This document shows positions 47,068-61,374 of a stretch of DNA of 62,322 nucleotides, piece by piece. This DNA comes from an uncultured Lachnospiraceae bacterium. Its GTDB lineage: Bacteria; Bacillota; Clostridia; Lachnospirales; Lachnospiraceae. The stretch is taken from positions 9,988 to 72,309 of the forward strand of contig CADABQ010000011.1 of assembly GCA_902786205.1 (NCBI GenBank), given 5' to 3'. The translations under genes were made by a program, and so were the position numbers. The notes below the pieces were generated by a model. That model was given only the letters and a program-made list of their open reading frames with translations. It had not been told where the DNA came from and did no database searches. Numbering within the stretch: the first letter of the stretch is position 1; every line of letters starts with the position of its first letter.

Positions 47068-48183
47068 CTATATTACCACACTATCATCACTTTCCAAAAT
47101 AGGATTCGACAATACATGAAAATTATTTTTACGAATTCCCTCATTAACCGCTGGTGTAACCTGCTCATTTTCAATGACATAAAGTTGTTGAATAAATACA
47201 TTTACTTCTTCTCCCACTTCCACCAATGCCTGCCCAAATTGACGATATGCATTGATTCGTTCCCCTTTTACTAGGATTTCTAACTCCAGCAGATTTCCAC
47301 GAAATGCTACATCCAAAACCTCTCCTGTTTCGGCTGATACCGCATACTTTATAGGTTCCTTTTTCTTCGTAACGGTAACATATTCGGAACGCAATATCGC
47401 TTTTCCACCATTTCCAATATGCGAAAATCCTTTGAATTTTCCATAATCTTCAATTGTAATGGCATTTCCTAGAAACTGTGCTACAAATTCTGTCTCTGGT
47501 TTACTGTATACTGCAAGCGGACTACCAATTTGTTCAATTCTTCCTTGATTCATAACAATAATTTCATCTGCCACTTCAATAGCTTCATGCTGATCATGGG
47601 TCACAAAAATACTGGTAATACCTACTTTATTAATTAACTCCCGCAACCAACTCCGCAACTCTTTTCGCACCTTTGCATCCAGTGCCGCAAAGGGTTCATC
47701 TAACAACAAAAGCTGCGGTTGTGTAGCAAGTGCTCTGGCAAATGCTACTCTCTGTTTCTGTCCACCAGATAATTGATTGGGATACCGTTTTTCCATTCCT
47801 CTCAATCCCACCAAATCAATCAATTCTTCTACTCTCTCTTTTATATCCGCCTTTTTCCATTTTGCAATTTTCAAACCAAAGGCAATGTTATCATACACCG
47901 TCTTGTAACGAAACAAAGCATAATTTTGAAATACAAAACCAACTCCACGTTTACTCGCCTTTACTTGATTCACCTGCTGCCCCGCAATATAGATTTCTCC
48001 CTTTTCTGCATCTTCCAATCCTGCCAGTATTCGAAGAATGGTTGTTTTTCCACTTCCACTTGGTCCAAGCAATCCCACAAGTTTTCCCTTTTCTACAGAA
48101 AAAGATACTTCATCGGATGCTTTTACCTTTCCAAAACTTTTCTCAATATTTTTAAGCTCTACATAAAAATTTTTCTCTTCCAT
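47068..48183 (-). CDS. cysA: Sulfate/thiosulfate ABC transporter ATP-binding protein
   Basis: 371 aa. Walker A GPSGSGKTT, signature LSGGQKQRVAFARAL, Walker B LLLLDEPFAALD, H-loop VTHDQHEA; the C-terminal third is a TOBE-like regulatory domain. The ALDAKVRKELRSWLREL context is typical of CysA. It drives the CysTW permease. An R2 element separates it from cysW; AAGGAG precedes the ATG. Confidence 0.93.
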   Translation of the reverse strand: MEEKNFYVELKNIEKSFGKVKASDEVSFSVEKGKLVGLLGPSGSGKTTILRILAGLEDAEKGEIYIAGQQVNQVKASKRGVGFVFQNYALFRYKTVYDNIAFGLKIAKWKKADIKERVEELIDLVGLRGMEKRYPNQLSGGQKQRVAFARALATQPQLLLLDEPFAALDAKVRKELRSWLRELINKVGITSIFVTHDQHEAIEVADEIIVMNQGRIEQIGSPLAVYSKPETEFVAQFLGNAITIEDYGKFKGFSHIGNGGKAILRSEYVTVTKKKEPIKYAVSAETGEVLDVAFRGNLLELEILVKGERINAYRQFGQALVEVGEEVNVFIQQLYVIENEQVTPAVNEGIRKNNFHVLSNPILESDDSVVI

Positions 48184-48207
48184 TTCCTTACTCCTTTCCT
48201 CTATATT

Positions 48208-48319
48208 GAAACAGTTCAGTCTGGCTATTCATAAAGTGCCAGAATATACAAATCGCACCTAATCTGCTAGCAGTCATGTTTGATTTGCACAATCATTTCT
48301 GCCCAGTTGAACTGTTTAC
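48208..48319. mobile_element. R2 miniature element (112 bp) between cysW and cysA
   Basis: The ends GAAACAGTTCAGT and its inverted partner near AGTTGAACTGTTTAC flank about 85 bp. The flanks TCTATATT and TCTATGCT are a degraded direct repeat (6/8). The cysW reading frame runs into it and ends inside it. Confidence 0.65.
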
Positions 48320-49120
48320 TCTATGCTCCAATATATTTCTCAAAATTAAAATAACAACCGCCATAATTACTAATATAGAAGACATGGCAAATGCACCTGT
48401 AAAGTCGAATGCCTGATACATCAATTCAATATAAAGTGGCATCGTATTGGTCAGCCCACGCAAATGTCCGGAAAGTACGGAAACTGCTCCAAACTCTCCC
48501 ATAGCTCTAGCTGTACAAAGAACAATTCCATAGAGCAATGCCCATTTTATATGCGGAAATGTAATTTCAAAAAAGATACGAAACCCTCCTGCACCCATTA
48601 AAGCTGCGGCTTCTTCCTCATCATTTCCAGTTGCCGTAAGCACTGGAATGATTTCTCTTGCTATAAAAGGAAATGTTACAAAAATCGTAGCAAGCACAAT
48701 TCCTGGTACTGCAAATATAATTTCAATCCCCCATTGTTCTAAATAATCGTATAAAAAACTTTGCCTTCCAAAGGTTAATACATAAATAAGTCCCGCAATG
48801 ATGGGAGAAATCGTAAGTGGCAAGTCAATCAAGGTCGAAATCAGTTTCTTTCCTTTAAATGTGTATTTTGTAATCAACCATGCCGCAAACACTCCAAATA
48901 TTGTATTCACAACTACTGCTATTACTGTTGTTTTTAAGGTTAGTAAGATTGCCTTTACCGCATAGTCATCCGATACGGCTACCCAAAATGCATTCCATCC
49001 ATCTCGAAGAGAAGTGATTACTACATATAGTAAGGGTAAGATTAACATAACAAGCAGAAACAAAGCACAAAATCCTATTAGCAACCATTTAAAAACACCA
49101 CGATCATTTTTCTCTTTCAT
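48293..49120 (-). CDS. cysW: Sulfate ABC transporter permease CysW
   Basis: 275 aa with six membrane segments and the EAA loop 'DEEEAAALMGAGGFRIFFEITFP'. 'MGEFGAVSVLSGHLRG' is typical of CysW. It forms the channel with CysT. The last eight residues (VNSSTGQK) and the TGA stop are encoded by repeat R2, so the natural C-terminus was replaced or extended by the insertion. AAGGAGGG precedes the start. Confidence 0.94.
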   Translation of the reverse strand: MKEKNDRGVFKWLLIGFCALFLLVMLILPLLYVVITSLRDGWNAFWVAVSDDYAVKAILLTLKTTVIAVVVNTIFGVFAAWLITKYTFKGKKLISTLIDLPLTISPIIAGLIYVLTFGRQSFLYDYLEQWGIEIIFAVPGIVLATIFVTFPFIAREIIPVLTATGNDEEEAAALMGAGGFRIFFEITFPHIKWALLYGIVLCTARAMGEFGAVSVLSGHLRGLTNTMPLYIELMYQAFDFTGAFAMSSILVIMAVVILILRNILEHRVNSSTGQK

Positions 49121-49131
49121 GCGATCCCTCC

Positions 49132-60183: not shown

Positions 60184-60236
60184 AAAAAAAGAGGCTTTGC
60201 ATTTTTATGAATATACATAAAAAATACAAAACCTCT
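60184..60236 (-). terminator. Terminator after the yezD-like gene
   Basis: GAGGTTTTGTATTTTTTATG and CATAAAAATGCAAAGCCTC form a long stem followed by seven T residues on the minus strand. It separates cysK2-yezD from the tRNA-like gene and nifB, about 23 bp before the tRNA. No good promoter was found between them, so the nifB unit may rely on readthrough. Confidence 0.85.
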
Positions 60237-60259
60237 GGTCTTTCCAGTCAGCTTGTTAC

Positions 60260-60412
60260 CTACAATCTTACCTTTTCTGTTTTGTCAATTTGAATAATCT
60301 TTCCATCCTGAATGATCAATATCACATTTCCATATTGAATATCCTTTATCATTTCTTTGACTTTTGTCAGGCTTACATCTATGTTATCTGATTTCTTTTT
60401 ATTGGTTTCCAT
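60260..60412 (-). CDS. YezD-like small protein (DUF2292), 50 aa
   Basis: The ATG at 60412 follows GAGGTGAT. The C-terminal half 'YGNVILIIQDGKIIQIDKTEK' followed by VRL matches the YezD/DUF2292 family, small proteins of unknown function that often lie near sulfur genes. It starts 24 bp after cysK2 and is followed by a terminator, so the two genes form one transcript. The N-terminus is Lys/Asp-rich. Confidence 0.8.
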   Translation of the reverse strand: METNKKKSDNIDVSLTKVKEMIKDIQYGNVILIIQDGKIIQIDKTEKVRL

Positions 60413-60435
60413 AGTCTATCACCTCGCACTCTGTT

Positions 60436-61374
60436 TTAATTGTTGTTAAATAAAGGTGTAGATAAATATCTATCTCCCGAATCTGGAAGCAATGCAACAA
60501 TTGTCTTTCCTTTATTTTCTGCTCTCTTAGCTACAATTTCTGCTGCCTTTAATGCTGCTCCTGATGAAATTCCCACAAGTATTCCTTCTGTTACTGCAAG
60601 AGCCTTTCCTTCTGCAAATGCGTCTTCATTGCGAATGGCAATTACTTCATCATATATTTTCGTGTTAAGAACTTCAGGTACAAACCCAGCTCCAATTCCC
60701 TGAATTTTATGCGGTCCTGCAACTCCAGTTGATAAAACAGCACTTGTAACCGGTTCAACTGCAATCACTTTAATCTCAGGATTTTGCTCTTTTAAATATT
60801 CTCCAACTCCTGTAACTGTTCCACCTGTTCCTACGCCTGCAATAAAGATATCAACTTTTCCCTCTGTCTGCTTCCAAATCTCAGGTCCTGTTGTCTCTTT
60901 ATGCGCTTTGGGATTGGAAGGATTTACAAACTGTCCAAGAATTATGGAACCTGGAATTTCTTTATTCAGTTCTTCTGCCTTAGCAATCGCACCTTTCATC
61001 CCCTTTGCTCCTTCCGTAAGAACAATTTCTGCTCCATACGCCTTAAGTAGGTTTCTTCGTTCCACACTCATGGTATCCGGAAGTGTAAGAATTGCCTTGT
61101 ATCCTTTTGCCGCTGCCACTGCTGCTAAGCCAATTCCTGTATTACCACTGGTTGGTTCAATAATGGTTGCTCCAGGCTTAATGAAACCATTTTTCTCTGC
61201 ATCTTCAATCATTGCCAAGGCAATACGATCCTTAACAGAACCTGCCGGGTTTAAATATTCTAGTTTTGCAAGTACCGTTGCTCCATCAATTTCTTTCTTC
61301 TTTGCGTATCGGTTGAGTTCCAGAATTGGTGTACCTCCAATCAGTTCCAACGCACTCTTTTTAATTTCTCCCAT
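60436..61374 (-). CDS. cysK: Cysteine synthase A (O-acetylserine sulfhydrylase)
   Basis: 312 aa from ATG at 61374 (AAGGAGG site). PLP Lys48 in AGSVKDR, substrate loop TSGNTG, 'LPDTMSVERRNLLKAYGA' and 'GTGGTVTGVGEYLKEQNP' are canonical for O-acetylserine sulfhydrylase. It makes cysteine from O-acetylserine and sulfide in the cytosol. First gene of the sulfur run; a long structured leader with an R1 element precedes it. No serine acetyltransferase is in the window. Confidence 0.94.
   Translation of the reverse strand: MGEIKKSALELIGGTPILELNRYAKKKEIDGATVLAKLEYLNPAGSVKDRIALAMIEDAEKNGFIKPGATIIEPTSGNTGIGLAAVAAAKGYKAILTLPDTMSVERRNLLKAYGAEIVLTEGAKGMKGAIAKAEELNKEIPGSIILGQFVNPSNPKAHKETTGPEIWKQTEGKVDIFIAGVGTGGTVTGVGEYLKEQNPEIKVIAVEPVTSAVLSTGVAGPHKIQGIGAGFVPEVLNTKIYDEVIAIRNEDAFAEGKALAVTEGILVGISSGAALKAAEIVAKRAENKGKTIVALLPDSGDRYLSTPLFNNN

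Follow-up and report, generated by a model that had tools for sequence, protein, structure and literature searches.

The stretch of DNA analysed here (the window; 62,322 nucleotides, positions 9,988 to 72,309 of contig CADABQ010000011.1 in assembly GCA_902786205.1, from an uncultured Lachnospiraceae bacterium) carries an operon for a nitrogenase-like (NFL) enzyme, with a gene for a cysteine-synthase-like protein set between those for its reductase and its catalytic subunits. Read along the minus strand from 61392 to 51701, its members are CysK1, DUF2292, tRNA-Cys, NflB, NifX A, NflH, CysK2, NflD, NflK, NifX B, Rrf2 and NifS. An earlier note, made from the letters of this DNA, had described a single co-oriented block, and every gene that it named lies in its place and in one orientation; the DUF2292 gene, the tRNA-Cys and the second NifX-family gene are members missing from its list. 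The core comprises NflB (59157..60032), a radical SAM maturase of the NifB type that lacks a NifX domain and has NifB as its closest Protein Data Bank (PDB) match (E 5e-87); NifX-family protein A (58808..59164; PF02579, E 5e-20), a predicted cluster carrier; NflH (57949..58815), a NifH-like reductase that exceeds the nifH cut-off of TIGR01287 (470 against 394 bits); CysK2 (56802..57794), a cysteine-synthase-like paralogue between nflH and nflD; NflD (55324..56790), a catalytic subunit like that of methylthio-alkane reductase (Mar); NflK (54026..55324), a catalytic subunit of 432 amino acids from an ATG, near 55324, that matches MarK (9d9u_C, E 1e-110); and NifX-family protein B (53547..53963; PF02579, E 6e-12). 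At the head of the operon stand CysK1 (60436..61392), a cysteine synthase A (TIGR01139, 445 bits against a cut-off of 351), a DUF2292 small protein of 50 amino acids (60260..60412; PF10055, E 2e-16) and tRNA-Cys (GCA) (60091..60162; ARAGORN and Rfam). Thus, of the two cysteine synthases first described, CysK1 is confirmed, and the second, CysK2, has the PALP fold but scores under the CysK cut-offs. A search of the whole genome (3.37 Mb) with NflD found NflD and NflK only, with no other NifD, NifE or NifN paralogue seen, in agreement with the original observation that nifE and nifN are not visible.

The operon is far beyond chance, its core gene order recurring in named relatives. These are the best 80 of 248 confirmed stretches from a scan of a genome collection (68 Bacillota-titled and 12 Bacteroidota-titled), and each count below is taken over the loci with enough sequence on the side concerned. 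Specifically, in Bacillota-titled loci NflK follows NflD in 64/64, NflB, NflH and NifX each lie upstream of NflD in 57/58, and a NifX-family gene lies downstream in 60 of the 62 with 2 kb there. CysK1 is found upstream of NflD in 42 of the 51 Bacillota-titled relatives with 6 kb upstream and tRNA-Cys in 24 of the same 51; an Rrf2 gene occurs in 11/46 and NifS in 13/46 relatives' loci. CysK2 stands directly upstream of NflD in 65/77 loci (57/65 Bacillota-titled and 8/12 Bacteroidota-titled), which bears out the link between the nitrogenase-like set and cysteine synthesis that the earlier note had drawn. That note had also thought the combination with CysK paralogues unusual; on the contrary, it is the rule in this clade, and a similar link was published in 2012 (PMC3464626).

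The slot ahead of NflD holds two distinct CysK-like types, with 49 and 16 of the 65 sequences. The Phe of the GQF motif is absent from the commonest forms of both (those shown account for 34/49 and 10/16 sequences) and from the CysK2 of the window, and is present in the commonest CysK1 forms. Because two unlike enzymes occupy one slot, beta-replacement on an activated serine would appear to be tied to the NFL product. Our comparisons thus support a tie between the enzyme and cysteine synthesis, as read from gene order.

Of the NifH/D/K trees that had been proposed as a check, the one run for NflD (IQ-TREE, 80 rows, with NifD rows labelled by their residues) does not group NflD with nitrogenases: a branch of 2.67 changes per site separates NflD, Mar and a further NFL clade (clade B) from the NifD-labelled rows. 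Support for the NflD clade is 100/100 without a relative from Heliophilum and 98/97 with it, and that for the Mar clade is 100/100. Clade B joins Mar and its kin in a group (98/97) that excludes the NflD clade, and the junction of the NflD clade with this group has weaker support (90/63). NflD is closest to Mar in sequence and in predicted fold, the alignment behind the structure prediction having contained Mar sequences, so that nearness of fold is not independent of the sequence evidence.

The ligands can be read against those of MarD, for which Cys270, His429 and Arg428 are described as cluster partners, His194, Trp195 and His375 as pocket residues, and the Arg428-His429 pair as a proposed Mar hallmark (PMC12552129). 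Among 90 clade rows with at least 60% identity to the NflD of the window (three of them the window's own DNA), all 90 keep the three P-cluster Cys (C52, C77 and C143), the cluster Cys at the Cys270 site (C257), the Arg-His hallmark pair (R413-H414) and the pocket Trp, Phe and His375 equivalent; the P-cluster Cys of NflK are 12, 36 and 95. By contrast, the MarD-194 site is Ile in 90/90 clade rows and His in 12/12 Mar rows, and the Cys73 site is Gly or Ser in 89/90 clade rows. At position 194 clade B has Val in 11/13 rows and Ile or Met in the others (its rows were picked by the ARHGG motif, so that only the remaining sites are independent), and the Heliophilum relative, 49% identical, has Val. 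At the sites of MarD 74, 195 and 199, the NifD-labelled rows carry V, Q and H, equivalent to NifD Val70, Gln191 and His195, against Q, W and F in the NflD of the window. NflB contains the CX3CX2C and CX2CRAD motifs (TIGR01290, 260 bits, under the cut-off of 344), and these NifB motifs make a carbide-bearing cluster a fair prediction, with NflDK predicted to carry a P-cluster and an [Fe8S9C] cluster.

Tree, ligands and gene content together support an enzyme unlike N2-fixing nitrogenase. The Mar-type interpretation first offered holds in that Mar is the closest relative and fails as to Mar itself: judged by its place outside the Mar clade and the lost pocket His, NflD is a separate clade. MarBHDK of Rhodospirillum rubrum (PDB 9fmg, 9d9u) shares the B, H, D, K gene set, the six P-cluster Cys, the cluster Cys, the Arg-His pair, the pocket Trp, Phe and His and the closest predicted fold, but differs in clade and at the His194 and Cys73 sites; in addition, the operon of the window contains CysK2 and two NifX-family genes. 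In 2012, Dos Santos et al. described nitrogenase-like proteins with an equivalent of Cys275 (examples being R. rubrum, Clostridium beijerinckii and Geobacter sp. FRC-32) as often encoded near O-acetylhomoserine sulfhydrylase or cysteine synthase, and suggested a sulfur role for them; the accessible text of that paper covers neither the rumen clade with its Mar-type ligands, nor the CysK2 slot, nor the sulfite-reductase pattern set out below (PMC3464626). Among the papers listed by a literature search, in which subscription papers were mostly outside coverage, none is a study of the function of the NflD clade. The operon combines a Mar-like architecture with a clade of its own, a changed pocket and a built-in cysteine synthase, the function being predicted.

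Carriers of the operon mostly lack a recognizable sulfite reductase. In a sample of the family (299 genomes, 298 genera, with the classes clade, other NFL and NifD-like assigned from identity to NflD), PF01077, a family that spans nitrite and sulfite reductases, is present in 3/19 clade genomes against 134/254 genomes without an NflD-like match (Fisher p 0.0018), a contrast that is not fully independent, as genera share ancestry. The comparison group leaves out two genomes with clade fragments (G449 and G517; 1/2 with PF01077) and seven with distant NifD-like matches (6/7 with PF01077). Genomes with other sulfur-type NFLs behave alike (3/17 against 134/254, p 0.0054), as do all NFL genomes pooled (6/36 against 134/254, p 5e-5). 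Among named carriers, PF01077 occurs in 4/50, this set, of unstated genome completeness, being 50 of the 80 relatives (9 of them Bacteroidota-titled) after 13 duplicates of the family sample and 17 mostly short-contig loci were left out. CysD does not separate the clade genomes (2/19) from the background (44/254, p 0.75), and among 69 carriers no convincing ATP sulfurylase was found, with five weak partial matches, three of them just above the cut-off. Since most tested carriers have no known route to or from sulfite, an enzyme stopping at sulfite would not feed CysK, a pattern that favours sulfide, or a thiol usable by CysK2, as the predicted product.

We therefore consider an operon-encoded carbide-cluster reductase that would free sulfide from a small sulfur compound for cysteine synthesis as the leading interpretation, with a probability of roughly one half. 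Under this interpretation, NflB would make the carbide-bearing cluster, the NifX proteins would carry it and NflDK would take it up without NifEN; NflH would then pass electrons, with ATP, through the P-cluster, and NflDK would cleave a C-S bond of an organic sulfur compound taken up by the cell to yield sulfide or, less probably, a small thiol. CysK2 might take the product directly onto activated serine, and CysK1 and CysK2 together would turn freed sulfide into cysteine. A broader proposal, that in rumen and gut bacteria such an enzyme supplies the sulfide for cysteine in place of sirohaem sulfite reductase, passes its product to the cysteine synthase encoded in the operon and corresponds to the Lachnospira and Butyrivibrio nitrogen-fixation genes of gut surveys, is put forward tentatively and, as a whole, strikes us as doubtful. 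The original interpretation thus survives as a cysteine-linked enzyme that is not a nitrogenase and is nearest to Mar, and not in its claims that the CysK link is unusual, that Sbp-CysTWA belongs to the system or that the enzyme is Mar.

Beyond the shared ancestry of the sampled genera and the breadth of PF01077, several observations weigh against this interpretation. The genome of the window encodes, elsewhere, CysDN, AprA, a ferredoxin-like AprB (read by eye) and a PF01077 protein of 517 amino acids (with no NCBIfam model match at 1e-70), as well as a second Sbp-CysTWA on another contig; this separate sulfate route implies that the NFL enzyme is not the only source of sulfide there. G469, the only sampled genome from the same genus, encodes PF01077 and CysD without NflD, so that the distribution of the operon is uneven even among members of one genus. 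O-acetylhomoserine sulfhydrylase (MetY) is present in 69/69 carriers, and a methanethiol product could therefore also be used; an argument against methanethiol from the absence of MetY was dropped on the same count. Finally, the genome has no orthologue of the sulfonate-type binding protein found beside the operon of the closely related locus L124 (best match 28%).

The rival that fares best, which we nevertheless regard as unlikely, is a nitrogenase-type sulfite reductase that would take sulfite to sulfide in a six-electron reduction in place of the sirohaem enzyme, leaving CysK to fix the sulfide. The absence of PF01077 from 16/19 and 46/50 carriers, the CysK in the operon and one carrier (G395) with CysD and no PF01077 match all speak for it. 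Most sampled carriers, however, seem unable to make sulfite from sulfate, given CysD in only 2/19 and weak ATP sulfurylase matches, and their CysD content is no different from the background. Nor is G395 special, as CysD occurs without PF01077 in 15 sampled genomes, 13 of which lack such an NFL, and the window's own genome has both the NFL and the PF01077 systems. Heliophilum fasciatum, which has a relative of the clade, is reported to use sulfate for growth in the absence of CysJI (PMC9147875); it carries PF01077 proteins, and the idea that its NFL (the clade relative L008, 49% identical) serves as its sulfite reductase was dropped in view of five PF01077 matches in the genome.

Somewhat less probable again is an enzyme with the function of Mar, releasing methanethiol for methionine synthesis from thioethers such as dimethyl sulfide. 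Mar is the closest solved relative, with the pocket Trp, Phe and His and the Arg-His pair kept, and MetY is encoded by every one of the 69 carriers; but NflD lies in a separate clade with Ile at the His194 site, and its usual operon partner is CysK. Indeed, MetY lies near NflD in only 6/46 relatives, as against 7/14 clade B loci; CysK-like genes lie near 5/14 of the latter.

We find it very improbable that the operon encodes an Nfa-type nitrogenase that does without NifEN, such as has been claimed for Endomicrobium proavitum. NflH does lie above the nifH cut-off, and a gut study placed the NifH of Lachnospira and Butyrivibrio in Cluster III as possible fixers and noted that E. proavitum fixes 15N2 with a NifD that lacks the His and has the Cys, like that of Lachnospira multipara (PMC4995403). 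However, NflD reaches 136 bits against the 654-bit NifD cut-off of TIGR01282, the Val70, Gln191 and His195 equivalents are not kept, the genome search with NflD revealed no NifE or NifN paralogue and the neighbours are cysteine genes; moreover, Mar, with its [Fe8S9C] cluster, is reported to lack N2 reduction (PMC12552129). NflDK1 (Nfa) of Heliophilum fasciatum, proposed to fix N2 (PMC9147875), is alike in having no NifEN and in having NifB, NifH, NifX and CysK nearby, but would belong to clade B if it is the pair adjoining nifH (L023).

Isethionate reductase (Isr), encoded by IsrBHDK of Rhodobacter capsulatus, is a precedent for a nitrogenase-like HDK set with a radical SAM protein serving sulfur assimilation (PMC11423573). 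An Isr-like enzyme releasing sulfite from sulfonates nonetheless deserves the least credence, for although sulfonate-type ABC genes lie upstream in 21/46 loci and Isr is likewise tied to sulfonate uptake, Isr D is described as lacking the cluster Cys and two of the three P-cluster Cys, all of which NflD has, and its radical SAM partner as BciD-like (PMC11423573), against the NifB-type NflB, and most tested carriers, lacking PF01077, would be unable to use sulfite further.

Downstream of the core lie an Rrf2 regulator (52888..53397; TIGR00738 above cut-off, CymR-like with 106 of the 195 bits required by the CymR model) and a NifS cysteine desulfurase (51701..52891; TIGR03402, 596 bits, above cut-off), followed after a gap of 333 bp by a Sbp-CysT-CysW-CysA sulfate-type transporter on the same strand (47068..51367, with Sbp at 51367-50285). 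The earlier note had counted this transporter in one run with the operon. It is instead a local neighbour outside the conserved system: Sbp, CysT and CysW stand beside the operon in 0/46 Bacillota-titled loci with at least 5 kb on both sides, Sbp has no match on either strand in any relative locus scanned, and the block is absent within 6 kb beyond the NifS of L124, whose NflD is 98% identical. Compared across relatives, the run therefore divides into a core whose gene order recurs and an Sbp-CysTWA block that does not, the latter being a paralogue (57-62% identity) of the other Sbp-CysTWA set of this genome. Sulfonate-type genes are the more frequent companions, with permease genes in 21/46 Bacillota-titled loci with at least 5 kb on both sides and ABC genes upstream in 21/46 with 9 kb upstream; 'sulfonate-type' is here a family label and not a substrate, as matches to the SsuA, SaoA and TauC-like models are all below cut-off. 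Such a set lies in L124 upstream of a GNAT gene and CysK1, on the side where the window reaches the contig end beyond its own GNAT gene, and clade B and other NFLs repeatedly have sulfonate-type neighbours as well. A DUF4418 protein, an FtsX-type permease and an ABC ATPase accompany this transporter upstream of CysK1 in many loci (for example L146:3495-3902, L136:3651-4853 and L173:3341-4552), and FtsX-like genes are also found by the Heliophilum NFLs.

Relatives with other arrangements extend this picture. The Bacteroidota-titled rumen loci (L179-L183, L185-L189, L195 and L203) encode an NflD 86-88% identical to that of the window, and MetI, MetQ and PatB homologues lie near NflD in 7/7 of those with 5 kb on both sides. 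NflB or NflH precedes NflD in 0/10 such loci with 3.5 kb upstream, and this arrangement, together with the high identity, points to a probable transfer between phyla. In 17 loci (L126, L130, L135, L138-L140, L144, L148, L150, L151, L161, L163, L166-L168, L172 and L176) a second NFL pair, clade C, lies downstream of the operon. Its D protein retains the Cys ligands of the P-cluster and of the cluster, but lacks the Arg-His pair and has Thr in place of His375 (19/19 rows; eight of the twelve sites served to select these rows, so that only the remaining sites are independent). Clade C may be a scaffold for the cluster, like NifEN, or a further reductase. Heliophilum fasciatum (L122, L123) has four NFL DK pairs within about 35 kb, neighboured by MetY, CysK, NifB, NifH, a protein resembling uroporphyrinogen decarboxylase (so named by eye) and sulfonate-type transporters.

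Within the operon, NifX protein B (53547-53963) contains a Cys-rich insert, CETVADTNGCAGYVGDCNSLGCSGNGSGC, that NifX protein A lacks and that might bind metal. With the 72-base tRNA-Cys as query, the sole match in the genome is the gene itself; the tRNA-Cys gene of the cell thus appears to stand at the head of a sulfur operon, although a diverged second copy could escape a DNA query. A terminator-like hairpin with a T run lies ahead of it (read by eye) and is not among the computed terminator-like sites. Neither promoter-like sites (38 against 49.8) nor terminator-like sites (10 against 8.2) stand out from shuffled sequence, and Rfam at the gathering threshold found only tRNAs. Most of the longer words common to upstream regions are dispersed repeats. 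One dispersed repeat, GTAACAGTTCNGCC, has 13 matches with at most two mismatches, where 0.64 would be expected. Its copies, several of which form facing pairs, lie at 57853-57933, 53457-53505, 18892-18920, 8123-8151 and other sites, two of them in gaps of the operon; a second repeat family has four copies.

The operon also bears on surveys of nitrogen fixation in the gut. A 2016 study of the human gut reported a NifH 98% identical to that of L. multipara, and homologues that share 83-100% identity with the NifH of Lachnospira and Butyrivibrio, assigned to Cluster III, in 10.7-31.7% of people across four cohorts; it described these bacteria as untried for N2 fixation and noted that the NifD of L. 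multipara lacks the His and keeps the Cys, while the His of NifD is still present in part of its Clostridiales clade (PMC4995403). The NflH of the window is 96% identical to the NflH of the L. multipara operon (L149 and L170), and the Lachnospira and Butyrivibrio nifH genes of the gut survey therefore probably belong to this kind of system. The NflH adjoining a different NFL clade (L076) shares 95% identity with that of the window, so that NifH alone does not tell the clade. Mise et al. warned of pseudo-nifH in Clostridia, defined by missing nifD and nifK (PMC8597730); an operon with NifD- and NifK-like genes, such as this one, could pass that filter. Mar and the NflD clade form a testable pair that differs in one pocket residue and in the adjoining acceptor enzyme. 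If the proposed function is correct, the NifH-like gene of the operon would be a false sign of nitrogen fixation, and many rumen and gut bacteria would assimilate sulfur by means of a nitrogenase-type enzyme.

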